A stretch of DNA of 39,866 nucleotides from Verrucomicrobiales bacterium (GTDB taxonomy: Bacteria; Verrucomicrobiota; Verrucomicrobiia; Methylacidiphilales; JAAUTS01). The DNA lies in the NCBI GenBank assembly GCA_031265365.1, contig JAISCS010000201.1, forward strand, positions 1 through 39,866, given 5' to 3'. This document shows, piece after piece, positions 2,534 through 28,506 of the stretch. The position numbers were made by a program, and so were the translations under genes. Under the pieces are notes generated by a model. It was not told the origin of the DNA. It made no database searches and saw nothing but the letters and a program-made list of their open reading frames with translations. Within the stretch, counting starts at the first letter, position 1, and each line of letters opens with the position of its first letter.

Positions 2534-2577
2534 TTGACGCTATATGGGAATACTTTATTGTTGAGATTAGGTCTCAA
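2534..2577 (+). promoter_or_regulatory. feoA promoter with Fur-like palindrome
   Basis: A TTGACG -35-like hexamer at 2534 is followed by T/A-rich sequence with possible -10 hexamers. The palindrome TTGAGATTAGGTCTCAA (2561-2577) would overlap the -10/start region. TTGAGA/TCTCAA arms resemble Fur-family boxes, and the gene behind is an iron gene, so iron-dependent repression is inferred. Confidence 0.5.
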
Positions 2578-2584
2578 TATTGGC

Positions 2585-2899
2585 ATGCAAACTTTGCTCA
2601 GTTCTGTTCGTTGTGGCACCAAAGGCGTCGTCACCGCCTTGGACGACTTTTTGCCCGCTACCAAACGGTTGCGGCGACTGGGCATCCATGAGGGAATGCC
2701 GGTGGAGGTGTTGCATGGCGACGACCCGATGATGATTTTGTGCCATCGCTCGAAAATTGCCGTCAGCCGCGATAGCCTCGATGCCGTCACTATCAGTGTT
2801 AAAAAGCACTCTTGCGAGGAGTGTTATTTTCCTGCCGCGTTTTTCAACTTGTTCCGCTTCAAAACCAAACTGGATTCGGGTTCTGCCGATAAAATATAA
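2585..2899 (+). CDS. feoA: FeoA-domain protein (first copy)
   Basis: A small SH3-like FeoA-domain protein, a cytoplasmic partner of the FeoB ferrous iron transporter. Recognisable segments are GTKGVVTALDD, TKRLRRLGIHEGMPVEVLHGDDPMMI and SKIAVSRDSLDAVTISV. It continues past the usual 75-80 residue domain with a Cys-containing tail (SCEECYF). The ATG at 2585 directly follows the Fur-like palindrome; the track start at 2534 is the TTG of the predicted -35 box and is unlikely. It is not next to feoB: a porin follows, and a second feoA precedes feoB at 13707. It may therefore serve as a regulatory or assembly subunit, which is inference. 104 aa. Confidence 0.85.
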   Translation: MQTLLSSVRCGTKGVVTALDDFLPATKRLRRLGIHEGMPVEVLHGDDPMMILCHRSKIAVSRDSLDAVTISVKKHSCEECYFPAAFFNLFRFKTKLDSGSADKI

Positions 2900-2938: not shown

Positions 2939-2969
2939 ATTATTGAGATTGACGCTCAGTCTCAATAAT
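2939..2969. promoter_or_regulatory. Fur-like operator upstream of the porin
   Basis: Perfect 10-bp arms ATTATTGAGA and TCTCAATAAT flank an 11-bp spacer that contains TTGACG, a candidate -35 with TAGTTT about 16 bases later as -10. The arms carry the same TTGAGA half-site as the palindrome before feoA. The match suggests co-regulation of feoA and the porin. Confidence 0.5.
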
Positions 2970-3057
2970 GTAGTTTTCCATTCTTATCGCGGTCAGCGGG
3001 TGCTGGCGGTGGCAAATGGATAATCCAAAAAAACAGAAAGAAAAAAGAGAGAATAAA

Positions 3058-4245
3058 ATGAAAGAACAATGGACAAAAATTATCGGCGGCGCGCTGGGCA
3101 GCGCGTTGTTGGTTTCGACTGGCCTCGCTGACGGTGGCGCTCCGGCGCCCTCGGCGAAGGATTTGTCGAAGGCGGTCGAAAAAGTAAATTACGTCGAAAC
3201 TGATACGGCGGGCGTCAAGCTCTCCGGTTATGTGGATGTCGGTTACATTTACAATTTCATCGGCAAAGGCAGCTATGCCATGTCGCGCGGCTACAATGCG
3301 TCGGACAGCCACAGCGGCGGTGACTTCAATGTCAACGCGGTCAAATTCACGCTGGAAAAATCGCTGACGGAGAAAAACGAATGGCAGGCGGGTTTCCGCG
3401 TGGACACGTTCGTCGGCAAGGACTGGGCGGAGTTCGTGCCCGGCGCCGGCAGTGACGCGAGCACGCTGTTCCTGCAACAGGCCTACGTGGAATTCCGCGT
3501 GCCGGTGGGGAACGGGTTGGATGTGCAATTCGGCAAAATGGGTTCCATCCTCGGCTTCGAGGCGGACGAGCGGCCGGCGAATTTGAACATCACGCAAGGG
3601 CTGAACGCGACCATTGACCCCGGTCCGTCGCCCGGTGTGCTGGCGACTTACCACGTCACCGACAGCGTTGACGTCATGCTCGGTGTCAACAACGGCGGCG
3701 GCTTGGACAACAATCCGGGCTTGGACACGAGTGGCGACGGCTACGGGTTCACCGGCGGCGTGAATTTTCACCACGACAATTTTGAAACACAACTCACCGG
3801 CTGCATTGAGCCGTGGGGCAACGAGGCTTACACGAGCGACAACGTCACCGTGTACGGCGTGAATTGGTGGACGACTTGGTCGCCAAAATTCGCCGCTGAC
3901 CATCTGCTGCTGGCGTTCAACGCGTCGTATTGGTACGCGAAAAATCTCGACCCGTCGGTGACGGATTATCCGGGCAGCTTCGCCACGGCGGCGCTGTACG
4001 CGAAGTACCAGTTCACCGACTTGTTCAGCCTCGCGGGACGCGGCGAGTACGTGAACGCCAACGACGGTGAAACGAATAATTACTGGTCGTTCACGCTGAC
4101 GGCGGGCTTCAACGTCGCGGAGAATTTGCTCCTGCGCGCGGAGTACCGTTACGACACGGGCAAAGACGTGGTGTACAATTATGACACCGAAACCGGCAAC
4201 CACAGCGGGCACACAGTGGCGCTGGAGGCGGTGTACACTTTTTGA
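3058..4245 (+). CDS. Outer-membrane beta-barrel porin, Bbp2/OmpL-like
   Basis: A predicted exported outer-membrane barrel of the putative beta-barrel porin-2 family (PF07642-like). A signal peptide is visible (MKEQWTKIIGGALGSALLVS, cleavage near ALADG-type residues). The mature part starts GVKLSGYVDVGYIYNF and alternates amphipathic strands, with family segments QFGKMGSILGFEADERPANLNIT and LDTSGDGYGFTGGVNF, and ends in the aromatic-terminated strand VALEAVYTF typical of BAM substrates. The start at 3058 follows a purine-rich RBS region; the track's upstream 14 residues are lysine-rich leader. It lies between Fur-like operators and the FTR1 permease, so a role in iron entry across the outer membrane is inferred. 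A paralogue is at 12010. 395 aa. Confidence 0.85.
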   Translation: MKEQWTKIIGGALGSALLVSTGLADGGAPAPSAKDLSKAVEKVNYVETDTAGVKLSGYVDVGYIYNFIGKGSYAMSRGYNASDSHSGGDFNVNAVKFTLEKSLTEKNEWQAGFRVDTFVGKDWAEFVPGAGSDASTLFLQQAYVEFRVPVGNGLDVQFGKMGSILGFEADERPANLNITQGLNATIDPGPSPGVLATYHVTDSVDVMLGVNNGGGLDNNPGLDTSGDGYGFTGGVNFHHDNFETQLTGCIEPWGNEAYTSDNVTVYGVNWWTTWSPKFAADHLLLAFNASYWYAKNLDPSVTDYPGSFATAALYAKYQFTDLFSLAGRGEYVNANDGETNNYWSFTLTAGFNVAENLLLRAEYRYDTGKDVVYNYDTETGNHSGHTVALEAVYTF

Positions 4246-4271: not shown

Positions 4272-4304
4272 CGCGGGTTCTTGCCTGATTGGCGAGAACT
4301 CGCG
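4272..4304. terminator. Hairpin between porin and FTR1 gene
   Basis: CGCGGGTTCTTGCC and GGCGAGAACTCGCG form a 14-bp stem with two mismatches around a 5-base loop. No T-run follows, so it may be an mRNA stabiliser or attenuator that separates high porin expression from the permease. Confidence 0.45.
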
Positions 4305-4342
4305 CGGCCCGCGGGCTGAATTCACCAACGAAAAATAATCCT

Positions 4343-6268
4343 ATGAGGTCATGGCGCATTTCCATCTTAGCTTGGCTCATCGGCTGCGGCGCGGCTTGGG
4401 GGCAGGGGGATTATCAGGCGTTCGTGGATGAGATTAAAAACCGGCTCGACCATACGACACGGTTGTACGCTGACGGTGACTCGGCCGGGGCGCGGGAGAT
4501 GGTGCAGTCGGCGTATTTCGAGGTGTTCGAAAATTTGGAGGGGCCGATTCGTATCAATATTTCCGCGAAACAAAGTTATGCGATGGAGGCGATGTTCGGC
4601 GAAATCCGCCGGTTGATTGGCGCGGGGGTCAAGCTCGAGGTGGTGCAAGGGAAAACCGATTGGCTCAAGGCGCAGCTCGACGCGGCGCTGCCGGTGTTGC
4701 GCGACGGGCATCAGCTCCGGGCGGAGAGTCGCGACGTGACGGTGGCCGCTGACGGTGACATCATTGAGGCGTGGCGCGAGTGTCTGCGCGGCTTGGAGAA
4801 CGATTTGGCGGCGGCGGTGACGGCGTACCAGGACGGCGAGTTCAAGGCGGCGCGGTTGAAAATCGAGCGGACGTGGTTCGCCAATTTCAAAAATTCCGAG
4901 CTGGAAATCAGCGTGCGGTTGCACCGGTCGCGCGCGGCGGCGGCGGAGATTAACCAGCGTTTTTCCAGATTGTTGAAACTCGCCGCTGACGGTGACGCGG
5001 GCATCACGACGGTTGGTTATGAAATCACGCGGTTGTTGGACGACCTCGCGGAGTTGCTGCCGGGGCTGCCGGCGGCGCGTGAGGAGGTGACGGTCAGCGA
5101 CGCGGACGCCGGCGCGGCATCGTCAGCGGACTGGCGCGCGGTCGGCGCGCAACTCAACGCCGCCTTCGCCGGCGCGATTGAGCAGTATCAGCGCGGCGAC
5201 GCGAAGGGCGCGGCGGCGGCGGTGCAGGACGCTTACTTTGACCTGTTCGAGGCGTCGGGGATGGAGAGCAAAATCGGTGCGCGCGACGCGGCGTTCAAGA
5301 CGCGGCTGGAAAATTACTTCACCCGCACGGTGGCGCTGATGAAGGCGGGGCGGCCGGCGGCGGAGTTGCGCGAGCAGGCGGCGGCATTGTCAGCGGACCT
5401 CGCGGCGGCGGCGGCGCTGCTCGGCGGGCGCGGCGCGGGCGGGGCGGCGGGGATGTTCATCTACAGCCTGACCATCATTTTGCGCGAGGGCCTGGAGGCG
5501 CTGCTCATCATCGCGGCCATCGTGGCGTATTTGGTGAAGAACGGGCACACGGCCAAGCTCGCCCTGGTGCGCAACGCGGTGCTGTGGGCGCTGGCGCTGA
5601 GCGTGGCGACGGCGCTGGGGTTTCATCTGCTGTTCGTCAACGCGGGGCAATACCGCGAGGTGTTCGAGGGCGTGACGATGCTGGTCGCGGTGACGGTGCT
5701 GTTCTCGATGAGCTACTGGCTGTTGTCCAAAGTCGAGGCGCGGCGGTGGCGGGCGTATTTGGAAAAGAAAGTCTCGCTGGCGCTGACCAAGGGGTCGCTC
5801 GCCGGGCTGTGGCTGACGTGTTTCCTGGCGGTGTACCGCGAGGGCGCCGAGACGGTGCTGTTTTATTACGCGCTGGCGGGCGACGCGCGCGGCGCGGCGG
5901 ACTACGGGTACCTGGCCGCGGGCCTGGCGACGGGCGGCGCCGCGCTGGCGGCGGTGTATTTCATCATGCGGCTGACGGTGACGCGCCTGCCGCTGAAGCC
6001 GTTCTTCCTGTGCACCGGCGGCTTCATGTACGCGATGGCGCTGGTGTACGCGGGCAAGGGCGTGCGCGAGTTGATTGAGGGCAAAGTGTTCCAGCCGACC
6101 GCCGCGCCGTTCGCCCCCGAAGTTGACTGGCTGGGCCTCTACCCGTACTGGGAGACGCTCACGCCGCAACTCATCCTGATTTTGGCCGCTTTGGTAGCGC
6201 TCTGGCACTTGTGCCGCGGCGCGGCGGCCATTAAAACAAACCAGAAAATAGAAATAAAACACACATGA
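4343..6268 (+). CDS. FTR1-family iron permease with periplasmic repeat domain
   Basis: An inner-membrane high-affinity iron permease. The membrane part (about residues 365-630) has the two REXXE iron-relay motifs, REGLEALLIIAAI and YREGAETVLFYYAL, in separate helices as in Ftr1/EfeU. A signal peptide (ISILAWLIGCGAAWG) and a 340-residue periplasmic region precede it. That region holds three degenerate repeats around YADGDSAGAREMVQSAYFEVFE, YQDGEFKAARLKIERTWFANF and YQRGDAKGAAAAVQDAYFDLFE. This architecture is the long FTR1 form found with P19 proteins. The ATG at 4343 starts just before the signal peptide. The P19 gene starts inside its stop codon (ATGA overlap), implying translational coupling. 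Three copies of the GCTGACGGT motif encode ADGD in the repeat region. 641 aa. Confidence 0.93.
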   Translation: MRSWRISILAWLIGCGAAWGQGDYQAFVDEIKNRLDHTTRLYADGDSAGAREMVQSAYFEVFENLEGPIRINISAKQSYAMEAMFGEIRRLIGAGVKLEVVQGKTDWLKAQLDAALPVLRDGHQLRAESRDVTVAADGDIIEAWRECLRGLENDLAAAVTAYQDGEFKAARLKIERTWFANFKNSELEISVRLHRSRAAAAEINQRFSRLLKLAADGDAGITTVGYEITRLLDDLAELLPGLPAAREEVTVSDADAGAASSADWRAVGAQLNAAFAGAIEQYQRGDAKGAAAAVQDAYFDLFEASGMESKIGARDAAFKTRLENYFTRTVALMKAGRPAAELREQAAALSADLAAAAALLGGRGAGGAAGMFIYSLTIILREGLEALLIIAAIVAYLVKNGHTAKLALVRNAVLWALALSVATALGFHLLFVNAGQYREVFEGVTMLVAVTVLFSMSYWLLSKVEARRWRAYLEKKVSLALTKGSLAGLWLTCFLAVYREGAETVLFYYALAGDARGAADYGYLAAGLATGGAALAAVYFIMRLTVTRLPLKPFFLCTGGFMYAMALVYAGKGVRELIEGKVFQPTAAPFAPEVDWLGLYPYWETLTPQLILILAALVALWHLCRGAAAIKTNQKIEIKHT

Positions 6269-6786
6269 ATAAACTAATAATCGCCGCCGCGGCCGGATTG
6301 CTCGCGGCCGGCATCACCGTCAACGCCTTTGAGGAAGTCCCCATCGGCGAGGCGCAGACGGCCAACGAAATGGAAATCGCCGCCGTCTATCTGCAACCGA
6401 TTGACATGGAACCAGCCGGCATGGGCCTGTCCGCCGCGAAGTCGGACATCCACCTGGAGGCTGACATCCACGCCGTCGAGGGCAACAAAAACGGCTTCGG
6501 CGCCGGCGAATGGATACCGTACCTGACCATCAACTACACGTTGGTCAACAAGGACACGGGCAAGGAGCAAAAGGGCGCCTTCATGCCGATGGTCGCCGCC
6601 GACGGCCCCCACTACGGCGCGAACATCAAGATGCCCGGCACCGGCAACTACAAGCTCACCTACAGCATCGAGCCGCCGTCCAAGGCCGGCCTCCACCGCC
6701 ACACCGACAAGGAAACCGGCGTCGGCAAATGGTGGAAGCCGTTCGACGTGAGCTATGAGTTCAAGTACACCGGGTTGAAAAAATAG
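6265..6786 (+). CDS. P19/Tp34-type periplasmic iron-binding protein
   Basis: A periplasmic metal-binding protein of the P19/Tp34/FetP family (Iron_transport, PF10634-like), which in other bacteria binds copper and iron and feeds the FTR1 permease. A signal peptide is seen (MNKLIIAAAAGLLAAGITVNA). Likely ligands are a Glu/Met/His set: ANEMEIAAVYLQ, MEPAGMGL, DIHLEADIHA, MPMVAADGPHYGANIKM and GLHRHTD. Length (173 aa) fits the family. Its ATG overlaps the FTR1 stop by four bases. In Campylobacter jejuni the order is also FTR1-like, P19, then membrane protein and ABC genes, which supports a shared uptake system. Confidence 0.93.
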   Translation: MNKLIIAAAAGLLAAGITVNAFEEVPIGEAQTANEMEIAAVYLQPIDMEPAGMGLSAAKSDIHLEADIHAVEGNKNGFGAGEWIPYLTINYTLVNKDTGKEQKGAFMPMVAADGPHYGANIKMPGTGNYKLTYSIEPPSKAGLHRHTDKETGVGKWWKPFDVSYEFKYTGLKK

Positions 6787-6892: not shown

Positions 6893-8569
6893 ATGAGCTA
6901 CTTCTTCGCCACGATTCTCGACCTGTTCCTGCCAGTCGCATTGCTGGCCGGGGTGGACCGGGCGCGCGGCGGCGGGGCGGCGCCGTCCGCGCGGGCGACG
7001 GCGCTGACCCTCGGCGCGGCCTTCGCGGCGGGGCTGGCGCTGGCGTGGCGGTTCGACAACACCGTCGCCGCCGTGCTGTGGTGGTCGGGGCTGGGGCGGA
7101 CGCTGGCCGTGGCGGCGCTGCTGGTGACGCAAGGCACCCACGCCCGCCGCGCCGGCCTCGCGCTGGTCGCGCTGACCGTCACCGGCGCCGCCTTCACCTG
7201 GGGGCGCGACCCCAACCTGCGCCTGCTCGCGGTCACCCACGTCATGAACACCGCGCTGCTGCTCAACCTCGCCGCCATCGCCGCCGCCCTCGCGCTGCTG
7301 GCGACCCTCGCCGGCCAATGCCGGCGGCTGGTCCAACTATGCCCCGCCGCGCGCTGGCCGCTGGCGGCGACCCTCGGCGCGCTGGTGCTGCTGCCGGCGG
7401 CGGGCGACGGATTGCTCGCGGCGATGAAGCTGGATTTTTTGGAACTAACCGCCCGCCGGCTGACCCTGGTCGCGCTGGCGACGAATTTCCCGTGGGCGCG
7501 CACGGCCCTGGCGCTGGGCGCGGTGGCGGCGGCGGTGACGCTGGCGGCGTGGCGCCGCCTCCGCCCGCTCAAACAAGCCGTCGCCCGCGCCGCCGCCGCC
7601 GGTGACGCGCTGGAACGCCGGCGCCGGCTGGCGGAATGGCGCGGCGCGCGCCGCTGGACGGCGGCGTCACTGGCGGCGCTGGCGCTGGCGGCGGCGGCCG
7701 GCGGGTACTGGCACGGCATCGCCGCGCGACCGCTGGCGTTGTCCCGCGCGCAACGGGTCCAGTTGAACGCCGACGGCGAGGTGCGCCTGCCCGGCGCGCT
7801 GACGACGCTGGCCGACGGCCGGCTGCACCGCTTCGAGTGGGTCGCCGACGACGGCAAAATCGTGCGCTTCTTCGTCATCAACCGCTTCGCCGGCACCGCC
7901 AGCCCGACGGTGGTGTTCGACGCCTGCATGTTGTGCGGCGACCTCGGCTACGCGCAGGAGGACGGGCAAGTGGTGTGCATCGCGTGCGGCGTGCGGATTC
8001 ATCCGCCGAGCGTCGGCAATGCCGGGGGCTGCAACCCGATTCCGTTGAACGCGTGGGGAGTGGAGGATGGCGACATCGTCATCCCGCAGGCGGCGCTGGA
8101 TGAGGGGGCGAGGTATTTCACTACGTATGAGAAGGATGGGCGGGTGACGGGGAGCGGGGGGCCTGGGAACGCGGGGGCAAGCCAACGACTTAATTGCTTA
8201 AGCAATCGGCTTAATTGCTTAAGCAACCGGCTTGATTGCTTAAGCAACCGGCCTGATTGCTTAAGCCTGAAGCTCGCGGACTTAAGCCCGCAACAGCCCC
8301 GAACGCTGAACTACCCCGTCGCTTCGCGCCACCCCTTCACGGAAGGGGAATTAGCTCGCGCAAGGGGCATAAGCGATGAGGTTGGTCTCCGCGTTAGCGA
8401 TTCCCCTTCCGTGAAGGGGTGTCCGCGCAGCGGACGGGGTAGTTCAGCGTTAATTTGGAATTTCGATTTTGAGATTTGGGATTTATTTGGAGTTTGGAAT
8501 TTGGAATTTGGAATTTCCCCCACCAGCCCGCCCGGCGCCCAACCGCAAAAGAAAGCGCCGCCATGCTGA
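6893..8569 (+). CDS. FtrD-like Fe-S-containing membrane protein (DUF2318) with repeat-derived tail
   Basis: An inner-membrane protein with many hydrophobic helices over residues 1-275 and a DUF2318/FtrD-like domain at about 335-395. The metal-cluster region reads FDACMLCGDLGY, QVVCIACGVRIHPPSVG and GGCNPIPL, five cysteines typical of this family. In Brucella FtrABCD and Campylobacter P19 systems such proteins are thought to handle electrons during iron uptake. The domain ends near residue 425. Beyond it the frame runs through four 21-bp tandem repeats (RLNCLSN, NRLDCLS), then an inverted-repeat element (PSVKGCPRSGRGSSA) and low-complexity sequence, adding about 130 residues. The stop overlaps the next start as ATGCTGA, so coupling to the permease is kept despite the insertions. 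558 aa as annotated. Confidence 0.85.
   Translation: MSYFFATILDLFLPVALLAGVDRARGGGAAPSARATALTLGAAFAAGLALAWRFDNTVAAVLWWSGLGRTLAVAALLVTQGTHARRAGLALVALTVTGAAFTWGRDPNLRLLAVTHVMNTALLLNLAAIAAALALLATLAGQCRRLVQLCPAARWPLAATLGALVLLPAAGDGLLAAMKLDFLELTARRLTLVALATNFPWARTALALGAVAAAVTLAAWRRLRPLKQAVARAAAAGDALERRRRLAEWRGARRWTAASLAALALAAAAGGYWHGIAARPLALSRAQRVQLNADGEVRLPGALTTLADGRLHRFEWVADDGKIVRFFVINRFAGTASPTVVFDACMLCGDLGYAQEDGQVVCIACGVRIHPPSVGNAGGCNPIPLNAWGVEDGDIVIPQAALDEGARYFTTYEKDGRVTGSGGPGNAGASQRLNCLSNRLNCLSNRLDCLSNRPDCLSLKLADLSPQQPRTLNYPVASRHPFTEGELARARGISDEVGLRVSDSPSVKGCPRSGRGSSALIWNFDFEIWDLFGVWNLEFGISPTSPPGAQPQKKAPPC
8186..8269 (+). repeat. Four 21-bp tandem repeats in the FtrD-like gene
   Basis: Units begin at 8186, 8207, 8228 and 8249 with near-identical sequence around the 12-bp palindrome TTGCTTAAGCAA. 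The 21-bp unit keeps the frame and encodes seven residues (RLNCLSN type). Confidence 0.9.
8302..8452. repeat. REP-like inverted element (family A), outer AACGCTGAAC
   Basis: Left arm 8302-8352 and right arm 8400-8452 are about 50 bases each and near-perfect inverses. Each arm contains a small inner hairpin CCCCTTCACGGAAGGGG. The element lies inside the 3' part of the FtrD-like ORF. The same arm sequence recurs at 13384, 25851, 28516 and 39654. Confidence 0.9.
8454..8517 (+). repeat. Low-complexity TTTGGAAT-type run
   Basis: Repeats of GGAATTT/TTTGGAAT and GATTTGGGATTT lie just after the inverted element and before the permease start. They are still in the FtrD-like frame (WNLEFGI). They seem to be filler repeat DNA. 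Confidence 0.6.
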
Positions 8570-9786
8570 CCCAAATGATTTTCCACTCCTGGCACCGCAA
8601 CCCGCGCCGCACCGCGCTGACGGTAACCACCGTCTTCCTCGCCACCGCCCTCATCTCCGCCCTGCTCGCCATCACCGTCAGCGTCGGCGACCAGATGGCG
8701 CGCGAGTTGAAATCCTACGGCGCCAACATCCTGCTGGAACCCGCCGTGGACGGCGATTACCTCGACACCCAAGACTTGCCGCGCATCAAGGAAATCTTCT
8801 GGCGCCACAACATCCTCGGCTTTGCCCCCCTGCTGGCCGGCACCGTCACCGCCGACGACGGCGGCGAGGTGGCCATCCTCGGCACGTTCTTCGACCAGCC
8901 GCTGCCGGTGGAGGGCGAGGACGATTTCCACACCGGCCAAAAAATCATCGCCCCCTATTGGCGGATTGACGGCGCGTGGCCCGACGACGCGCGCCCCGAG
9001 GCGCTGGCCGGCGCGCGCCTGGCGGAGCGACGGGGCTGGCGCGTCGGGCAGACGCTGACGCTGGCCGGCGCGCGGCCCGTCGTCCTCAGCGGCATCCTGG
9101 AGAGCGGCGGCGAGGAGGACGAGTTGCTGGTCGTGCCGCTGGCGCTGGCGCAGGAGTTGCTGGGGCGGCCGGGCCGGGCGGACGCGGCGCGGGTGTCGGC
9201 GCTGACGGTGCCGGAGAACCGCCTGTCCGCCAAGGCCCGCGCCAACCGCGACGCGCTGACGGCGGAGGAGTATGACGTGTGGTATTGCACCGCCTACGTG
9301 TCGTCCATCGCGCACCAGCTTGAGGAGGCGCTGCCCGGCGCGCGCGCGCGGCCGGTGTGGCAGGTCGCGGCGTCGGAGGGCGTGATTGTCGGCAAGGTGC
9401 AACTGCTGTTGCTGGTGGCGACGCTGGCGGCGCTGCTGGCGGCGGCGATGGGCGTGGCCGCGCTGACCGCCGGCGCCATCCTGGAGCGCGCGGCGGAAAT
9501 CGCCTTGCTGAAGGCGCTGGCCGCGCGCCCGCGCCACATCGCGCTGTTGTTCCACGCGGAAGTCACCGTCAGCGCCCTGCTCGGCGGCGCGCTCGGCTGC
9601 GGCGCGGGCTGGCTGCTGGCGCGGCATTTGGGGCAAACTTTGTTCGGCGCGCCGCTGGCGATGGCGTGGATAACGGTGCCCGGCGTGCTGGCGCTGGCGG
9701 TGGCGATTGCCCTGCTCGGCGCGTGGCTGCCGGTGAGGCAAATCGCGGCGCTCGCGCCGGCGGAGGTGTTGCATGGCCGGCGCTGA
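8563..9786 (+). CDS. ABC transporter permease, FtsX/MacB-type (first)
   Basis: An inner-membrane permease subunit of a MacB/LolC-like ABC complex. It shows the family layout: an N-terminal helix (TALTVTTVFLATALISALLAITVSV), a large extracytoplasmic domain (about residues 40-270), then three C-terminal helices with the FtsX signature (ERAAEIALLKALAARPRHIALLFHAE). The ATG at 8563 is chosen over the track start at 8476, which reads low-complexity repeat. It overlaps the FtrD-like stop (ATGCTGA) and overlaps the second permease by 14 bases. In Campylobacter P19 clusters two such permeases and an ATPase follow P19; their substrate is not settled. 407 aa. Confidence 0.9.
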   Translation: MLTQMIFHSWHRNPRRTALTVTTVFLATALISALLAITVSVGDQMARELKSYGANILLEPAVDGDYLDTQDLPRIKEIFWRHNILGFAPLLAGTVTADDGGEVAILGTFFDQPLPVEGEDDFHTGQKIIAPYWRIDGAWPDDARPEALAGARLAERRGWRVGQTLTLAGARPVVLSGILESGGEEDELLVVPLALAQELLGRPGRADAARVSALTVPENRLSAKARANRDALTAEEYDVWYCTAYVSSIAHQLEEALPGARARPVWQVAASEGVIVGKVQLLLLVATLAALLAAAMGVAALTAGAILERAAEIALLKALAARPRHIALLFHAEVTVSALLGGALGCGAGWLLARHLGQTLFGAPLAMAWITVPGVLALAVAIALLGAWLPVRQIAALAPAEVLHGRR

Positions 9787-10918
9787 CCCCATGTTCCGGC
9801 GGCTGGTGTGGCGCGCGCTGCGGTGGCGGCGCGGGCGCGCGGCGGTCGTGTTCGCGGCGCTGACGGTGGGCGCGGCGATTGTCTGCGCGCTGGCGGCGGT
9901 GTATTTCGACATCCACGCCGGCATGAGCCGCGAGCTGCGGACCTTCGGCGCGAACTTTTACCTCGGCCCCGCCGGCGCGGGCGGCGCGACGTGGGCGGAG
10001 GCGGATTTTAACCACCTCATCGCCGGCGCCCCGCCGGGCCTGGTCGTCGCCGCCAGCCCGTGCCTGCTCGGCACCGCGCAAGTCGGCGCGCGCCGCGTCG
10101 CGCTGGCCGGCGTGAGCTTCGAGGGCCTGCGCCCGCTGGCCGCGTACTGGCAGGTGCGCGGGGCGTGGGTCGCCGCTGATTTTGACGACCGCAACGCCAT
10201 GCTCGGCGCGCGCTTGGCGGAGGAACTGGAGCGCGGCGTCGGCGACGAACTCACGCTGACCAACGACTTGGCGGATGACGCGGCCAAGCCCCTCCGCGTC
10301 AAAGGCGTGGTCGAGACCGGCGACGCCAACGACCGGCGGCTCATCGTCAGCCTCGCCCTCGCGCAAGAGTGGCTCGGCCAGCCCGGCCGCCTCAGCCACG
10401 CCCTGCTGCGCGTGGACGGCCCGCCGGAGCGCGTCGCGGCGTGGGCGGCGGACGTGCGCCAGCGCTACCCCGCGCTCGACGCCAAGCCCATCCTCCGCAT
10501 CGCCGCCGCCGAGGGGTTGGTGTTGGACAAAATCAAGGGCCTGATGGGGCTGGTCGCGCTGGTCATCCTCGCGCTGGCGACGCTGTGCGTGAACACCGCC
10601 CTGACCGCCAGCGTCAGCGCGCGCGCCGTCGAGTTCGCCCTGCAACAAGCCCTCGGCGCCCGCCGCCGCGCCATCGTCGCCCAAATCCTCGCCGAGACCC
10701 TGCTCACCGCCGCCGCCGCCGCCGCCGCCGGGCTGGCGTTGGGCTGGGTGCTCGCGCAACTCATCGGCCGCGCCGTCTTCGCCGCCGCGATAACCTTCCG
10801 CGCCCCGGTGCTGCCGCTGACCGTCACCCTGGCCCTGGCGGCGGCGCTGCTCGCCGTCATCCTGCCCATCCGCCGCGCCCTGCAAACCGAGCCGGCGCGG
10901 ATTTTGAAAGGGGAATGA
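9773..10918 (+). CDS. ABC transporter permease, FtsX/MacB-type (second)
   Basis: Second permease of the same complex, homologous in layout to its neighbour: N-terminal helix (AALTVGAAIVCALAAVYFDIHAGM), extracytoplasmic domain, and three C-terminal helices with SARAVEFALQQALGARRRAIVAQILAE. The two would form a heterodimer with the ATPase at 11038. Its start lies within the end of the first permease. A possible alternative start is the ATG at 9791 (MFRRLVW). 381 aa. Confidence 0.9.
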   Translation: MAGADPMFRRLVWRALRWRRGRAAVVFAALTVGAAIVCALAAVYFDIHAGMSRELRTFGANFYLGPAGAGGATWAEADFNHLIAGAPPGLVVAASPCLLGTAQVGARRVALAGVSFEGLRPLAAYWQVRGAWVAADFDDRNAMLGARLAEELERGVGDELTLTNDLADDAAKPLRVKGVVETGDANDRRLIVSLALAQEWLGQPGRLSHALLRVDGPPERVAAWAADVRQRYPALDAKPILRIAAAEGLVLDKIKGLMGLVALVILALATLCVNTALTASVSARAVEFALQQALGARRRAIVAQILAETLLTAAAAAAAGLALGWVLAQLIGRAVFAAAITFRAPVLPLTVTLALAAALLAVILPIRRALQTEPARILKGE

Positions 10919-11037: not shown

Positions 11038-11688
11038 ATGAACATCATCGAAACCCACAACCTAACCAAATCCTTCGGCTCCGTCATCGCCGTCAACGAC
11101 CTCACCATCAGCGTCCGGCGCGGCGAGTTCGTCGCCTTCATGGGCGCCAGCGGCTCCGGCAAAACCACCTTGCTCAACATCCTCGCCTGCCTCGACACCT
11201 TCACCAGCGGCGAGGTGTTCATCGACGGCCACAACCTCGCCGCCCTCGACGAGGAAGGCCGCCGCGTCCTGCGCGCCAACAAAATCGGCCTGGTGTTCCA
11301 ACAATTCCACCTCATCCCCTACCTCACCGCGCTGGAAAACGTCATGCTCGCCCAACACTTCCACAGCGTCACCGACGAGCCGGCCGCGCGGCAAATCCTC
11401 GGCGACGTCGGCCTGGCCCACCGCCTGCACCACCGCCCCGGCGCCCTCTCCGGCGGCGAGCAACAGCGCGTCTGCATCGCCCGCGCCCTGGTCAACGAAC
11501 CGCCCATCCTGTTCGCCGACGAACCCACCGGCAACCTCGACGAGGAAAACGAGTGCAACATCCTGGCCTTGCTGCAAGACCTGCACCGGCGCGGCCGCAC
11601 CGTCGTCCTCGTCACCCACAACCCCGACCTCGCCGCCCGCGCCGACCGCATCATCCGCCTGCACCACGGGAAAGTTTTTGAACCATGA
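11038..11688 (+). CDS. ABC transporter ATP-binding protein, MacB/LolD-type
   Basis: The cytoplasmic ATPase of the FtsX-like complex. Motifs in order: Walker A GASGSGKTT (about residues 37-45), Q-loop FQQFHLIPYLTALENV, signature LSGGEQQR, Walker B ILFADEPTGNLD and H-loop VTHN. Length (216 aa) is that of MacB/LolD ATPases. It follows the two permeases after a hairpin-rich gap and closes the cluster. Its stop sits in an ATGA that starts a repeat-derived ORF. Confidence 0.95.
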   Translation: MNIIETHNLTKSFGSVIAVNDLTISVRRGEFVAFMGASGSGKTTLLNILACLDTFTSGEVFIDGHNLAALDEEGRRVLRANKIGLVFQQFHLIPYLTALENVMLAQHFHSVTDEPAARQILGDVGLAHRLHHRPGALSGGEQQRVCIARALVNEPPILFADEPTGNLDEENECNILALLQDLHRRGRTVVLVTHNPDLAARADRIIRLHHGKVFEP

Positions 11689-11694
11689 ACTCCA

Positions 11695-11993
11695 GCCACG
11701 AAGACGCCAAGCCGCGAAGGTTAAAAATATTTATGCACACCTCAATCATGAAACCGCTAACCTTAATCCTAACCCTCCTCACCGCCCTGCCGCTGACCGT
11801 CACGGCGCGGGATTGCTGCGCCAATTCCCCGTCCGCAGGGGGCTGGCGGCGGAAGTCGGCGGAGAATTTCACCGTTAAAAAGCCCGCCCCCAGCGACCCG
11901 GGTATCTCCCGTAGCGGCCCAAGACACACTCAAAACGCCCGCCCTCGCCCATCAACCATCAAAAAACACTTCGCGCCTTAGCGTCTTCGTGGC
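11695..11993. repeat. Inverted-repeat element (GCCACGAAGACGC family)
   Basis: Arms 11695-11719 and 11969-11993 are inverse copies over 25 bases with two mismatches. They enclose a duplicated porin leader. A related half copy (TCTTCGCGGCTTCGTGACC) is seen near 30880. Confidence 0.75.
11733..11981 (+). pseudogene. Duplicated signal-peptide leader of the downstream porin
   Basis: The first 32 residues (MHTSIMKPLTLILTLLTALPLTVTA, then RDCC) nearly repeat the start of the porin at 12010 (MHPAIMKPLTLILTLL, HDCC), also at DNA level. After that the frame goes into unrelated Arg/Pro-rich sequence with no barrel strands. It is probably a truncated duplicate. If translated, it would be a short exported peptide with a CC motif. 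The in-frame ATG at 11685 overlaps the ATPase stop but would read repeat sequence. Confidence 0.6.
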
Positions 11994-12009
11994 CTGAGTT
12001 AAAAAAATT

Positions 12010-13356
12010 ATGCACCCCGCAATCATGAAACCACTAACCCTAATCCTAACCCTCCTCCCCGCCCTGCCGCTGACCGTGACGGCGCACGATTGTTGTGAAA
12101 ATACCGCGCCACCCCCTCTCTGCGAGAGGGGAATTAGCTCGCACAGGAGCAGTGTCCATGCGGATTGCCCCAGCGTCAGCAATTCCCTGGGAACGCGGGG
12201 CTCCCGCCCCGACTGCTGCGCCCTCGACCACGTGCCGTCCCCCGTCGCCACCGCCCCCGCCGGCGTCAAACTCAGCGGCTACGCCGACCTCGCCTACCTC
12301 TACAACCTCGGCACCCCCTCGGCGGCGCAAGGTTACGCCACCGACCGCCGCCCGCGCGGCAACTTCAACGTCAACCAACTCCAACTCGCCCTCGCCAAGC
12401 CGCTGACCGACGCAAACCAATGGCAAGCCGGCTTCGCCGCCGCCGTCCTGCTCGGCGAGGACTTCGCCGCCATGAGCGGGCGCGACCGCGGCGCCAGCTC
12501 GCTCTACCTCCAGCACGCGCACCTTGACCTCCGCGTCCCCCTCGGCCGCGGCCTCGACGTGCAACTCGGCAAACTCTGCTCCGTCATGGGCTACGAAAGC
12601 GACGAGCGCCCCGCCAACCTCAACATCACCAAAGGCGCCAGCACGCTGTTCGACCCGTGCTCCGCCACCGGCGCGTTCCTCAGCTACCCCGTCACCGACT
12701 GGCTGACCGCGCAAGCCGGCGTCCACAACGGCAGCGGCGCCGACGGCAACCCCGGCTTCGACACCAGCGGCGACGCCTACGCCTTCCTCGCCAGCCTGCG
12801 CCTGCACAACCGCGCCCACACCCTCGCCACGCAACTCACCGTCCAATACGCCCCCTGGGGCGAGGCATGCCCACACCACGCCAACCACGCCAGCGCCATG
12901 TGCGCCCCCGACAACACCAACGTCATCGGCCTCAACTGGTGGCTCAACTGGCTCCCCGCCCGCGCCGACAGCAAACTCCTGCTGGCGCTCAACACCTCGC
13001 TATGGAGCTGGGACAACACCATGGTCATGCCCATGCCGATGCCCGCGACCACCGCCACCTACAGCGCCCTCGCCGCCTACGCCAAATACCAATGCACCCC
13101 ATGCCTCAGCCTCGCCGCCCGCGCCGAATACGTCCACACCCACAACGGCGAATACAACGCGGCGCGCGGCACCTCCTACTTCTGGAACAATGGCCGGCGC
13201 GACGACGACCTCTACACCCTGACCCTGACCGCCGCCCTCAACCTGGCGGAAGACCTACTCCTCCGCACCGAATACCGCCTAGACACCGGCGCCCGCGTCG
13301 CCACCACCCAAGACCTCGCCCACCTGCTAGCCCTCGAGGCGGTGTACAGTTTTTGA
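12010..13356 (+). CDS. Bbp2-like outer-membrane porin with Cys/His/Met-rich segments
   Basis: A paralogue of the porin at 3058. Shared segments include GVKLSGYADLAYLYNL, QLGKLCSVMGYESDERPANLNIT, FDTSGDAYAFLASL, the NWW stretch and the terminal strand LALEAVYSF. A signal peptide is clear (MKPLTLILTLLPALPLTVTA). Unlike its paralogue, it carries likely metal ligands: HDCC at the mature N-terminus and later DCC, a loop ACPHHANHASAMC, a Met-rich loop MVMPMPMP and QCTPCLS. This suggests metal binding at the cell surface or periplasmic side (inference). About 35 residues after the signal peptide (LCERGISSHRSSVHAD and on) come from a degenerate family-A repeat inserted in frame. It follows the FTR1/P19/ABC cluster. 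448 aa; the ATG at 12025 is an alternative start. Confidence 0.82.
   Translation: MHPAIMKPLTLILTLLPALPLTVTAHDCCENTAPPPLCERGISSHRSSVHADCPSVSNSLGTRGSRPDCCALDHVPSPVATAPAGVKLSGYADLAYLYNLGTPSAAQGYATDRRPRGNFNVNQLQLALAKPLTDANQWQAGFAAAVLLGEDFAAMSGRDRGASSLYLQHAHLDLRVPLGRGLDVQLGKLCSVMGYESDERPANLNITKGASTLFDPCSATGAFLSYPVTDWLTAQAGVHNGSGADGNPGFDTSGDAYAFLASLRLHNRAHTLATQLTVQYAPWGEACPHHANHASAMCAPDNTNVIGLNWWLNWLPARADSKLLLALNTSLWSWDNTMVMPMPMPATTATYSALAAYAKYQCTPCLSLAARAEYVHTHNGEYNAARGTSYFWNNGRRDDDLYTLTLTAALNLAEDLLLRTEYRLDTGARVATTQDLAHLLALEAVYSF
12106..12215. repeat. Degenerate family-A repeat inside the porin gene
   Basis: A CCCCTCTCTGCGAGAGGGG hairpin followed by AATTAGCTCGC matches the left-arm end of the 8302 element. 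The other arm is decayed (AATTCCCTGGG) and merges with GGGGCTCCCGCCCC. It is in frame within the porin. Confidence 0.6.
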
Positions 13357-13383: not shown

Positions 13384-13537
13384 AACGCTGAAACACCCCG
13401 TCGGCTCGCGCCGCCACCCCTCTTCGAGAGGGGAATTAACGCTTACAGGGAACAGGGTCGATGAGGTTTGTTTCGGCGTAAGCAATTCCCCTCTCGAAGA
13501 GGGGTGGCGGCGCGAGCCGACGGGGTGTTTTAGCGTT
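13384..13537. repeat. REP-like inverted element (family A), 54-bp arms
   Basis: Arms 13384-13437 and 13484-13537 are near-perfect inverses, with the same outer AACGCTGAAACACCCCGTC and inner GGGGAATT order as at 8302. It fills the gap after the second porin and could act as its terminator. Confidence 0.9.
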
Positions 13538-13706: not shown

Positions 13707-13934
13707 ATGAAACACCTCAACGAACTCGCCATCGGCGACCGGGCCGGGATTATCGCCGTCAACGCCGGCGGTGGCCGCGCGCCGCGCTTGCTGGCGTTGG
13801 GCCTGTTGCCGGGCGTGACGGTGGAAGTCGCCGGCGTCGCGCCCTTCGGCGACCCGCTGACGGTGAAGGTGCGCGGGCGCCCCGTGAGCTTGCGGCGCGC
13901 GGATGCGGCGTTGGTGACGGTGGAACAATTATGA
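13707..13934 (+). CDS. feoA: FeoA, ferrous iron transport accessory protein
   Basis: A 75-residue SH3-like FeoA protein of standard size, with the family segments LNELAIGDRAGIIAV, RLLALGLLPGVTVEVAGVAPFGDPLTVKV and VSLRRADAALVTV. It acts in the cytoplasm with FeoB. Its stop overlaps the feoB start as ATGA, showing tight coupling. It carries one GCTGACGGT motif that encodes PLTV. The first FeoA copy (2585) is longer and separate. Confidence 0.95.
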   Translation: MKHLNELAIGDRAGIIAVNAGGGRAPRLLALGLLPGVTVEVAGVAPFGDPLTVKVRGRPVSLRRADAALVTVEQL

Positions 13935-16126
13935 CGCCCCACCCGCTTATCGCCATCATCGGCAACCCGAACACCGGCAAGTCCACCATCTTTAACAAGC
14001 TCACCGGCAGCCGGCAGCGCGTCGGTAATTATCCGGGCGTCACGGTCGAGAAGAAAACCGGCCGCCTCACCATCGGCGGGCGCGCGGCGGTGTTGTTCGA
14101 TTTGCCCGGCGCTTACAGCCTCGCCGCCGCGTCGCCGGACGAGCGCGTCGCCGTGGATGTGTTGACGGGACATTCCGATTGCCCGCGGCCCGACCTCGTG
14201 ATTTGCGTCGCCGACGCCGCCAATCTGCAACGCAACCTCTTCCTCGCCATGCAAATCGCCGACTTCGGCCTGCCGATGGTGCTGGCGCTGAACATGACCG
14301 ACGAGGCGGCGAAGCTCGGCATCACTGTCAGCGCTGAAAAACTTTCCGCCAAACTCGGCCTCCCCGTCGTGCCGATGGTCGCGGTGAAAGGCCGGGGCCT
14401 CGACGAACTCAAGGCCGCCATCGCCGTCGCGCTGGAGCAACCGGCGCCGCCGCTGACGATGGCGTGGCCGCCCGCCGTGGACGAGGCGCTGGGGATAATT
14501 GAACATGGATTATCGAATATTGATAATTTGGAAAAAACCGCCGACGCCGCGGGCCAAACAACTAATCCATCATCAATAATCCATCATCAATTAACCCGCC
14601 CCGAACTGCGCCGCGTGTTATTCGACGCCGATTCCGCGCTGCCCGACCGCGCCGGCGTCCGCAAAGACCGCCTCGCCCCGCTGCTGGTGACGGCGCGTGA
14701 ACGTTTGTTCCAAGCCGGCATGAATCCGCTGGCGGCGGAGGCGCTCATCGTATACCAACACCTCGGCGCGTTGCTCGCTGATGTTGAAACACACACCGCC
14801 ACGGGCCGCGCGCCATTTTCCGATCAGCTCGACCGCGTGCTCACCCACCGCGTCTGGGGCCTCGTGATTTTCCTCGGCGTGATGTGCGTCGTCTTCCAAT
14901 CCATTTACGCGTGGGCGGCGCCGCTGATGGACGCGATTGAACGCCTGGTCGGCGCCGTGCAGGAACCGGTCGGCGCGTGGCTGGCCGGCTCGCCCGCGTT
15001 GCAAAGTTTGCTCACGGACGGGGTCATCGCCGGCGTCGGCAGCGTGCTCGTGTTTTTGCCGCAAATCCTCATTTTGTTTTTCTTCATCGCGCTGCTGGAG
15101 GACTCCGGATACATGGCGCGCGCGGCGTTCTTGATGGACAAGCTCTTCAGCTGGTGCGGGCTGAACGGCAAGAGCTTCGTGCCCATGCTCAGCGGCTTCG
15201 CGTGCGGCATCCCGGCGGTGCTGGCCGCGCGCACCATCGAGGACCCCAAGTCGCGGCTGGCCACCATCCTCATCGCGCCGCTGATGAGCTGCTCCGCGCG
15301 GCTGCCGGTGTACGTCATCATGATTGGCGCGTTCATCGAGCCGGTGTACGGCGCGCGCTGGGCCGGCTTCGCGCTGTTCGCCATGCACCTGCTGGGGCTG
15401 GCGCTGGCGCTGCCGCTGGCGTGGCTGTTCACCAGGTTTTTGCTGCGCGGCCAGTCGCAGCCGTTCCTGCTGGAGCTGCCGCCGTACCGTTGGCCCGCGC
15501 CGCTGAACGTGCTGTGGCGCATGTGGGAGCGCGGCGGGCAATTTGTCAAGCGCGCCGGCACCATCATCTTCGCCGTGTCCATCATCATCTGGGCGCTGTG
15601 TTATTTCCCGCGACCCGCCGAGGTTGAGGAACAGGCGCGCGGCCAATTTCACGTCGCCGCCGACCCCGGCCTGCAACACGCCATTGACAGCGCGTATCTT
15701 GAGCAAAGCTACCTCGGTCGCGCCGGCAAATTCATCCAGCCGGTGTTCGCCCCCGCCGGCTTTGATTGGAAAATCACCGTCGGCGTGCTGGCCAGCTTCC
15801 CCGCGCGCGAAGTCATCGTCAGCACGCTGGGCATCATCTATAATCTCGGCGCTGACGTTGACGAGGAAAGCGAGCCGCTGCGCGAAAAAATGGCGACGGA
15901 ACAATGGACCACCGGCGCGCTGGCGGGCACGCCGGTGTTTAACGTCCCCGTGGCGCTGGCGGTGATGGTCTTCTTCGCCCTGTGCCTGCAATGCGGCGCG
16001 GCGGTGGCCGTCATCATCCGCGAGGTCGGCTTGAAATGGGGCGTGTTCAGTTTCTGTTACCTGACCGCGCTGGCGTGGGCGGGCGCGGTGCTGTGCTACC
16101 AAATCGGCATGAGGATTTTCGCATGA
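13931..16126 (+). CDS. feoB: FeoB ferrous iron transporter
   Basis: An inner-membrane Fe(II) transporter with an N-terminal G-protein domain. G motifs seen: G1 GNPNTGKST, YPGVTVEKK (switch region), G3 DLPG, G4 NMTD. A helical linker follows, then the membrane domain with GYMARAAFLMDKLF, the Cys-containing helix FVPMLSGFACGIPAVLAARTI, LMSCSARLPVYVIMIGAF and FFALCLQCGAAVAVI. Length (731 aa) is typical. The true start is the ATG at 13931; the track's 105 extra residues read the feoA region in another frame. The last codon overlaps a small Cys-rich membrane protein gene, completing feoA-feoB-accessory. A stretch at about 14510-14590 is locally AT-rich and repetitive (ATTATCGAATATTGAT, CATCATCAAT) and falls in the G-domain/membrane linker. 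Confidence 0.97.
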   Translation: MTPHPLIAIIGNPNTGKSTIFNKLTGSRQRVGNYPGVTVEKKTGRLTIGGRAAVLFDLPGAYSLAAASPDERVAVDVLTGHSDCPRPDLVICVADAANLQRNLFLAMQIADFGLPMVLALNMTDEAAKLGITVSAEKLSAKLGLPVVPMVAVKGRGLDELKAAIAVALEQPAPPLTMAWPPAVDEALGIIEHGLSNIDNLEKTADAAGQTTNPSSIIHHQLTRPELRRVLFDADSALPDRAGVRKDRLAPLLVTARERLFQAGMNPLAAEALIVYQHLGALLADVETHTATGRAPFSDQLDRVLTHRVWGLVIFLGVMCVVFQSIYAWAAPLMDAIERLVGAVQEPVGAWLAGSPALQSLLTDGVIAGVGSVLVFLPQILILFFFIALLEDSGYMARAAFLMDKLFSWCGLNGKSFVPMLSGFACGIPAVLAARTIEDPKSRLATILIAPLMSCSARLPVYVIMIGAFIEPVYGARWAGFALFAMHLLGLALALPLAWLFTRFLLRGQSQPFLLELPPYRWPAPLNVLWRMWERGGQFVKRAGTIIFAVSIIIWALCYFPRPAEVEEQARGQFHVAADPGLQHAIDSAYLEQSYLGRAGKFIQPVFAPAGFDWKITVGVLASFPAREVIVSTLGIIYNLGADVDEESEPLREKMATEQWTTGALAGTPVFNVPVALAVMVFFALCLQCGAAVAVIIREVGLKWGVFSFCYLTALAWAGAVLCYQIGMRIFA

Positions 16127-17789: not shown

Positions 17790-18166
17790 CGCAGAGACGC
17801 GAAGGACGCAAAGGTTCGCAAAGGATTTCTTTTGAGTTTTGTGGTTCGGAGTTGTCGGTTGGCTTGCCCGGAGGCTTTTTTGGGTCAGACTAAACGTCGG
17901 TTGGCTTGCCGGAGGCTTTTTTAGGACAGACTAAGTGTCGGGTGGCTTGCCGGAGGCTTTTTTAGGCCAGACTAAGTGTCGGTTGGCTTGCCGGAGGCTT
18001 TTTTAGGCCAGACTAAGTGTCGGTTGGCTTGCCGGTGCTTTGTTCATACCAGCTTAAACATCGGAAAGTTTGGCTTTGGCGGAGCCTGATTCTACTGATT
18101 ACTGTGCTGAACCCAAAAAATCTTTGCGAATCTTGGTTTCTTTGCGTCTTTGCGTCAAAAAATCTC
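17787..18166. repeat. Inverted-repeat element (TTGACGCAAAGACGC family) enclosing a tandem array
   Basis: Left arm about 17787-17832 and right arm about 18116-18166 are inverse copies of a sequence like TTGACGCAAAGACGC with an inner TTCGCAAAGATTT part. A compact two-arm version without cargo lies at 23354-23451. This fills the 413-base gap between ribE and the zinc-ribbon gene. Confidence 0.75.
17854..18064 (+). repeat. Five 41-42-bp tandem repeats
   Basis: Units start at 17854, 17896, 17937, 17978 and 18019; the first is 42 bases and the last is degenerate. The core is GGCTTGCCGGAGGCTTTTTT followed by AGGCCAGACTAAGT. There are no unique spacers, so it is not CRISPR. Each unit has a short GCCGGAGGC hairpin plus T-run, so the array might act as a weak repeated terminator. 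Confidence 0.9.
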
Positions 18167-26718: not shown

Positions 26719-28506
26719 ATGCGCGTGGTGTTTGTTTGTACCGGAAACGTTTGCCGCAGCCCGATGGCGGAGGCGTTGTTCCGTGACTTGACCAAGGCGG
26801 CGGGTGGGTTCACCTCGGCGTCGGCGGGTATCGGCGCCGCTGACGGGCAGCCGCCCAGCACGCATTCCGTCGCGGCGATGCGCGAGCTGGGCATTGACAT
26901 CAGCGGACAGCGCAGCCGGATGATTACGCCGGAGTTGGTCGCTGACGCTGACTTGATTGTGGCGATGACGTTCGGGCACCATGATGTGTTGCAAATGTTG
27001 TTCCCGGAGGCGGCGGACAAAATGTTTCTGTTGCGCGAGTTCGAGGAGGCCGCTGATGGTGAGTTGGAAATTGACGACCCCATCGGGCTGTCGCTGGAAA
27101 CGTACCGCGTCTGCCGCGACCAAATCCGCGCGGCGGTTCAGGCGCTGGCGGCGGCGTTGCTGGAGCCGGGCCGACCCGCTGACGGTGCCCCTTTCCGCGA
27201 TGACGCCAATCGCGCGCGCCGCCGCCGGACCATTGAAAAAATCAAATCGAAAATCAACATGAGCACCTCAAATCCCAACCTGCAACACGCCGACCCTGAG
27301 ATTTTCCGCGCCATCAGCGGGGAAAAGGAGCGGCAATTCAACAACATCGAACTCATCGCGTCGGAGAATTTCACCAGCCGCGCGGTGATGGAGGCCCAGG
27401 GTTCCTGCCTGACCAACAAATACGCGGAGGGTTATCCGGGCCGGCGCTGGTACGGCGGTTGCGAGTTCGTGGACGTGGTGGAGCAACTGGCGATTGACCG
27501 CGCGAAGGCGGTGTTTGGCGCGGAACACGCCAATGTGCAACCGCACTCCGGCTCGCAGGCGAACACGGCGGTGTATTTCTCCGTGCTGCAAGTCGGCGAC
27601 CGCATTCTGACGATGGATTTGGCGCACGGCGGGCATTTGACGCACGGGCACAGGATGAATTTTTCCGGCAAGTTGTTCGAGGTGCGGCATTACGGCGTCA
27701 GCCCCGCAACCGAGGCGATTGATTATGACGAGTTGCGGAAAGCGGCGGAGGAATTTCGCCCGAAAATGATTACCGTCGGCGCGTCGGCATACTCGCGGAT
27801 TATTGATTTCAAGCGGATGGGCGAGATTGCGCGGTTGGTGGGCGCGTATTTGTTCGCGGACATCGCGCACATCGCGGGCCTGGTCGCCGCCGGTGAGCAT
27901 CCGTCGCCGGTGGAGCACGCGGATTTTGTGACGACGACGACGCACAAGACCTTGCGCGGGCCGCGCGGCGGGTTGATTTTGTGCCGCGCGAAATACGCGA
28001 AGGAAATTGACGCGACAGTGTTCCCCGGCTTCCAAGGCGGGCCGCTGATGCACGTCATCGCGGCGAAGGCGGTGTGCTTGGGCGAGGCATTGCGGCCGGA
28101 GTTCAAGACCTACCAGCAACAAGTCCGGCGCAACGCCAAGGCGTTGTGCGAGGGCATGAAGAAGAACGGCTACCGCATCGTCAGCGGCGCGACGGAAAAC
28201 CACGTCATGCTGGTTGACGTGCAGCCGCAGGGGTTGACCGGCAAGGAAGTGCAAGAGGCGCTGGACCAGGCGGGCGTCACGGTGAACAAAAACGCCATTC
28301 CGTTTGACCGGCAGTCGCCGTTCAAGGCGGGCGGCGTGCGGCTCGGTACGCCGGCGGTGACCACGCGCGGGATGAAGGAGGACGAGATGTTTGACATCGC
28401 CAACTTCATTCACGAGGGCATTCAACAGCGCGGCGACGCGGCGGCACTGTCAGCGTTGCGGAAGAAGGTGCACGCCTTCACCGCGAATTATCCCCTGCCG
28501 GGGTAA
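26719..28506 (+). CDS. glyA: LMW phosphatase fused to serine hydroxymethyltransferase
   Basis: One open frame joins two proteins. Residues 1-148 are a low-molecular-weight phosphatase: P-loop [13 protein letters not shown] and the DDPIG acid motif. The residue before the second Cys is Val, whereas arginine phosphatases such as YwlE have Thr, which favours a tyrosine-type enzyme. Residues 181-595 are serine hydroxymethyltransferase (glycine/serine and one-carbon metabolism, PLP): [44 protein letters not shown] and the PLP-Lys motif [13 protein letters not shown]. The 32-residue basic linker has no stop and contains a GCTGACGGT motif. An ATG at 27259 (MSTSNPNLQ) could start SHMT alone, so both a fusion and separate SHMT are possible. 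Confidence 0.9.

Follow-up and report, generated by a model that had tools for sequence, protein, structure and literature searches.

A BBP2-family porin with conserved cysteine, histidine and methionine loops as a candidate outer-membrane channel of a combined Fet and Feo iron locus

Iron-transport genes around porin B

The window, i.e. the whole stretch of DNA analysed here, comprises 39,866 nucleotides of a Verrucomicrobiales contig (genome G000). It carries a run of iron-transport genes, all encoded on the forward (+) strand. The run starts with a gene for a FeoA-domain protein (feoA1, 2585..2899; Pfam PF04023, E=2.6e-10) and is followed by porin A (3016..4245, with an alternative ATG at 3058; PF07642, E=3.9e-45), a BBP2-family protein that is devoid of metal-ligand loops. 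Next are the ORF of an FTR1-type, FetM-like iron permease (4289..6268; PF03239, with an NCBIfam EfeU/FTR1 match below the cut-off), the periplasmic iron transport protein P19/FetP (6265..6786; PF10634, E=6.8e-72) and an FtrD-like (DUF2318, FetA-like) membrane protein (6893..8569; PF10080). Two FtsX-like permeases, an ORF resembling FetB (8476..9786) and a FetC-like gene (9773..10918; PF02687 and PF12704 in both), precede a FetD-like ABC ATPase (11038..11688; PF00005). Porin B (12010..13356), a second feoA gene (feoA2, 13707..13934; PF04023, E=4.2e-18) and the gene of the ferrous iron transporter FeoB (13931..16126; FeoB_N, E=2.2e-57; TIGR00437 above its cut-off) complete the locus.

FeoA and FeoB, the two parts of a Feo system, are thus both encoded here, and the first six Fet genes (FTR1, P19, DUF2318 protein, permease, permease, ATPase) follow the fet order. 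The seventh place is occupied by porin B, the only gene between the ATPase and feoA2, and not by a thioredoxin or FMN-binding protein gene. Porin B is probably transcribed together with the iron locus; this is not certain because about 320 bp, containing a duplicated cassette, separate it from the ABC gene.

The same gene order is found in G004, a second species of the genus. One contig carries the end of feoA1, feoA2, a palindrome, porin A, FTR1 and P19, and another carries FtrD, FtsX, FtsX, ABC, porin B and feoB; the two separate contigs are presumably continuous. In a member of the same family (G006), a palindrome is directly followed by two FeoA-like reading frames, recognized by eye, and feoB. 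From this plain feo locus it follows that the Fet cluster and the two porins of the window are located within the equivalent of a feo locus. Outside the genus, no linkage between BBP2 and Fet clusters could be demonstrated: P19 is seldom found in the phylum (in 1 of 388 drawn genomes and in 4 of 116 relatives), and the cluster of genome G024 has no porin. A relative (G001) has four tandem BBP2 porin genes (contig C19, L045 5089-10725).

A perfect TTGAGA-N5-TCTCAA palindrome, a Fur-box-like candidate operator, was located by sequence search upstream of feoA1 (2561..2577), and two overlapping copies, offset by 6 bp and with 2 mismatches each, directly upstream of porin A (2943..2965). The motif was first spotted by eye and then tested. 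Its exact form occurs once in the whole G000 genome and once in G004, in both cases within the iron locus; the G004 copy takes the same place before porin A (L040 2237-2253). The palindrome preceding feoA in G006 is also exact, and near matches precede feoB in G001 and FTR1 in genome G003. A further copy, recognized by eye where a flavodoxin-like gene of G001 begins, would fit an iron-responsive regulator. No classical E. coli-type Fur box was found, and no strong copy of the palindrome lies directly before porin B.

Several other features of the window were recorded. Tandem 21-bp repeats at 8179-8283 encode LNCLSNRLNCLSNRLDCLSNRPDCLSLK, a repeat-derived, Cys-bearing stretch towards the C-terminal end of the FtrD-like ORF. 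The segment 11038-13356, with the ABC ATPase and porin B, has C-rich third codon positions and a strongly negative GC skew. This composition is not shared by porin A, FtsX and FeoB, nor by the orthologous porin B. A 41-bp unit forms a tandem array of about 5 copies at 17868-18072, and an ORF at 26719-28506 fuses a low-molecular-weight protein-tyrosine-phosphatase domain to serine hydroxymethyltransferase.

Porin B, its N-terminal segment and its ligand loops

The porin B ORF (12010-13356, +) is open and encodes 448 aa. Residues 86-430 match the BBP2 profile (PF07642, E=6.1e-37) with 128 bits, compared to a curated cut-off of 26.2. BBP2 is the only Pfam domain of the protein, which has no TonB-dependent receptor barrel with plug of the OprC type; a profile search of the PDB returned no relative by sequence. 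A preliminary description of this DNA had listed four Cys/His/Met strings in porin B, and the ORF translation contains all of them at the reported coordinates: HDCC (residues 26-29, 12085-12096), DCC (residues 68-70, 12211-12219), ACPHHANHASAMC (loop 1, A286-C298, 12865..12903) and MVMPMPMP (loop 2, M338-P345, 13021..13044). The accompanying statement that the paralogue porin A (3016/3058-4245) has none of them is borne out by the alignment, in which all matching places hold gaps or unrelated residues. The N-terminal strings and the loop strings are two different things with separate origins.

The HDCC string belongs to a 5' cassette that also encodes the signal peptide (12001..12108) and is absent from the orthologue. 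It is 85% identical to an upstream duplicate with leader, signal peptide and RDCC that runs into a short dead-end ORF (11724..11831). Similar leaders and signal peptides are found on unrelated genes in G000 and G003, as if such cassettes were exchanged between surface-protein genes. Downstream of HDCC, an 84-bp palindromic dispersed repeat (12104..12187) encodes the cysteines C38 and C53; its dozens of genomic copies are mostly 73-84% identical. A hairpin repeat of about 35 bp (12185..12220) encodes the residues ending in GSRPDCC and has copies on contigs C14, C40, C84 and C167 that are 89-100% identical. Typical copies read GCCCCG-CTGGTGCG, and the equivalent in porin B is GCCCCGACTGCTGCG. 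At 12104-12220, two dispersed palindromic repeats are hence translated in frame within an intact porin ORF and yield new protein sequence. Between porin B and feoA2 (13384-13537) lies a near-perfect 54-bp inverted repeat with a 46-bp spacer, which seems to be a complete copy of the dispersed palindromic repeat. The orthologue has an ordinary N-terminus that starts with MKIKIPGCFIVGAMALPLMLTAAPNDGLERAVAQVDRVATSAIKLSGY and follows the plan of porin A; porin B instead has the signal peptide, HDCC and a linker. Given the duplicated cassette and the inserted repeats, the N-terminal cysteines arose in a single species by local rearrangement. The earlier suggestion that HDCC and DCC are metal ligands was accordingly rejected.

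The two loops behave differently from the N-terminal segment. Porin B and its G004 orthologue share 66% protein identity overall and 67% in the barrel (the core average). Identity is higher at the loops, with CPHHANHASAMC conserved at 11/12 positions, NTMVMPMPMPA at 10/11 and EYVHTHNGE at 9/9. Among family-variable columns, identity is 89% within the two loops (19 columns) and 54% elsewhere (26 columns); this comparison is of one pair of sequences, porin B and its single orthologue among the collections searched, from draft genomes that are about 77% complete. The orthologue reads ECPRHANHASAMC in loop 1 and MIMPMPMP in loop 2, so that the pair shares the patterns CPxHANHASAMC (2 Cys, 2-3 His, 1 Met) and NTMxMPMPMPA, in which MxMPMPMP supplies 4 Met. 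Residues common to both are C287, H290, H293, M297 and C298 of loop 1, M338, M340, M342 and M344 of loop 2, C190 (12577..12579) and C217 (12658..12660) on either side of the family-conserved segment GYESDERPANLNITKGA, and H376 and H378 of the HTH motif that starts the next variable loop (13135..13143). Not conserved are H289, which is Arg in the orthologue, and C362 and C365 of the string YQCTPC.

When the barrel residues were shuffled, a Met cluster this dense had p=0.0007 in porin B and p=0.0003 in the orthologue; for the C/H/M cluster the values were p=0.008 and p=0.02, respectively. At loop 1 as at loop 2, each of the 29 other homologues in the alignment shows at most one Cys, His or Met. 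At the DNA level, the loop-1 pattern is present in G000 and G004 only, among 190 genomes. An MPMPMP-encoding string is common (114 of 286 genomes), so this string alone proves nothing. Scans of genomic and viral contigs, with patterns that may have been too narrow, yielded no further porin B relatives. In the phylogenetic tree, porin B and its orthologue form a fully supported clade of two on a long stem, and this clade is sister to porin A and another paralogue of the same genome.

Both ligand loops are probably extracellular according to topology rules. Short conserved turns (NWxPKFADDK, YQFTDxFSL, FNVxENLL) alternate with long variable loops in the family alignment, and the C-terminal strand of outer-membrane barrels generally ends in the periplasm; the placement follows from these two points. 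An AlphaFold model built from two sequences (pLDDT 38) showed no more than a strand pattern and was not used for geometry.

The preliminary description had proposed a metal-capturing porin. Judged by the refuting conditions which that description had set, this idea survives for the loops, since the ligands are conserved in a syntenic orthologue and lie in variable extramembrane loops rather than in the barrel wall, and it is strengthened by the iron-transport operon context, of which the description had said nothing. As for the N-terminal clusters, it was abandoned. Metal binding by the loops is predicted from their residue pattern.

Candidate role and alternative readings

The best explanation of these observations, to which we give about even weight, is that porin B is the outer-membrane channel of the Fet/Feo locus and carries metal-docking loops. 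As a BBP2 beta-barrel, it would be dedicated to the combined Fet (FTR1-P19-FtrD-FtsX2-ABC) and Feo (FeoA-FeoB) iron import. The soft-metal ligands of the two presumably extracellular loops could together create a low-affinity site at the mouth of the pore where Fe(II) or Cu(I) docks and becomes concentrated, and the ion would then pass through the barrel to periplasmic P19 and on to the inner-membrane permeases. The N-terminal Cys clusters stand outside this mechanism. The broader proposal, that the merged Feo-Fet locus encodes its own selective metal importer of the porin type, independent of TonB and with an extracellular Cys/His/Met docking site, and that this is the missing outer-membrane part of Fet, is put forward tentatively and with less than even confidence. 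Little is known of the route by which ionic iron or copper crosses the outer membrane, and a cluster-encoded porin with conserved ligand loops is a concrete candidate, testable by mutation of a handful of residues.

As to the metal, the chemistry of the loop ligands, in particular of the Met loop, suggests Cu(I), whereas the gene context suggests Fe(II). The loops might thus take up Cu(I) instead of iron and serve to metallate P19. Chan et al. are said to have found that the copper site of P19/FetP is required for iron transport, which makes copper capture a real alternative. Four closely spaced Met together with Cys and His are Cu(I)-type ligands, comparable to the methionine track of OprC (PMC8610252). 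However, the annotated genes of the locus include no copper gene, and feoA, feoB and FTR1 all indicate iron. This reading is possible but rather unlikely.

It is unlikely that the cysteines are purely structural. Exactly four Cys are kept, in two plausible loop-flanking pairs that could be disulfides: C287-C298 would close loop 1 and C190-C217 would tie the strand ends around GYESDERPANLNITKGA. The His and Met residues would then be incidental and porin B a general channel or one for another substrate, but the conservation of M338-M344, H290, H293, M297 and HTH within variable loops would be left unexplained.

An ordinary BBP2 porin whose odd loops arose through compositional drift is quite improbable. 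It is true that C occupies 75% of the third codon positions in porin B and the adjoining ABC gene and that the GC skew there is strongly negative, which makes codons for His (CAC), Pro and Ala more likely. The orthologue, in contrast, retains the loops without any such bias (C at 45% of third positions), which is why the C-rich composition cannot be their whole cause. Finally, a second functional metal site at the N-terminus, as the two CC pairs and two more Cys within the short mature N-terminus might indicate, is highly improbable in view of its missing match in the orthologue and its origin from a duplicated cassette and dispersed repeats.

Relation to known systems

Porin B resembles the BBP2 family (PF07642, OmpL-like putative beta-barrel porin-2) in its profile match over the barrel and its C-terminal YSF. 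It differs in its Cys/His and Met loops, which are absent from every other aligned member. Most porins are unspecific, which counts against a dedicated role of porin B. The general porin OmpC of E. coli is encoded outside the feo operon. OmpC is reported to take part with Feo in ferrous uptake and in this respect would parallel porin B; no ligand loops of OmpC are noted in the available part of that source (PMC7315122).

OprC of P. aeruginosa provides a precedent for metal capture by Met/Cys/His sites of an outer-membrane protein: its Cys, His and Met ligands and its methionine track serve ionic copper (PMC8610252). Residues of these kinds are present in porin B as well. As a TonB-dependent transporter, OprC has 22 strands and a plug, whereas porin B has neither a plug nor a TonB domain. 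The likeness would be a functional parallel at most, and porin B is not a member of that group.

The closest arrangement is that of fetMP-fetABCDEF, the P19 system of C. jejuni (CJJ81176_1649-1656), where FTR1, P19, a DUF2318 protein, two permeases and an ATPase are encoded in the order seen in the window (PMC6083913, PMC10783030). Its seventh gene encodes a thioredoxin or FMN-binding protein, in contrast to the porin of the window, which in addition has a second porin at the head of the cluster and places the whole between feoA and feoB. Since the first seven products are taken as the minimal system (PMC6083913) and the seventh gene is here a porin, the window locus is a variant of the fet cluster. 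In the Fet model, iron crosses the outer membrane by a transporter yet to be identified, and no cluster-encoded receptor is apparent (PMC6083913, PMC10783030). Because the published models have no outer-membrane component, porin A and porin B are good candidates for this part of the Fet system.
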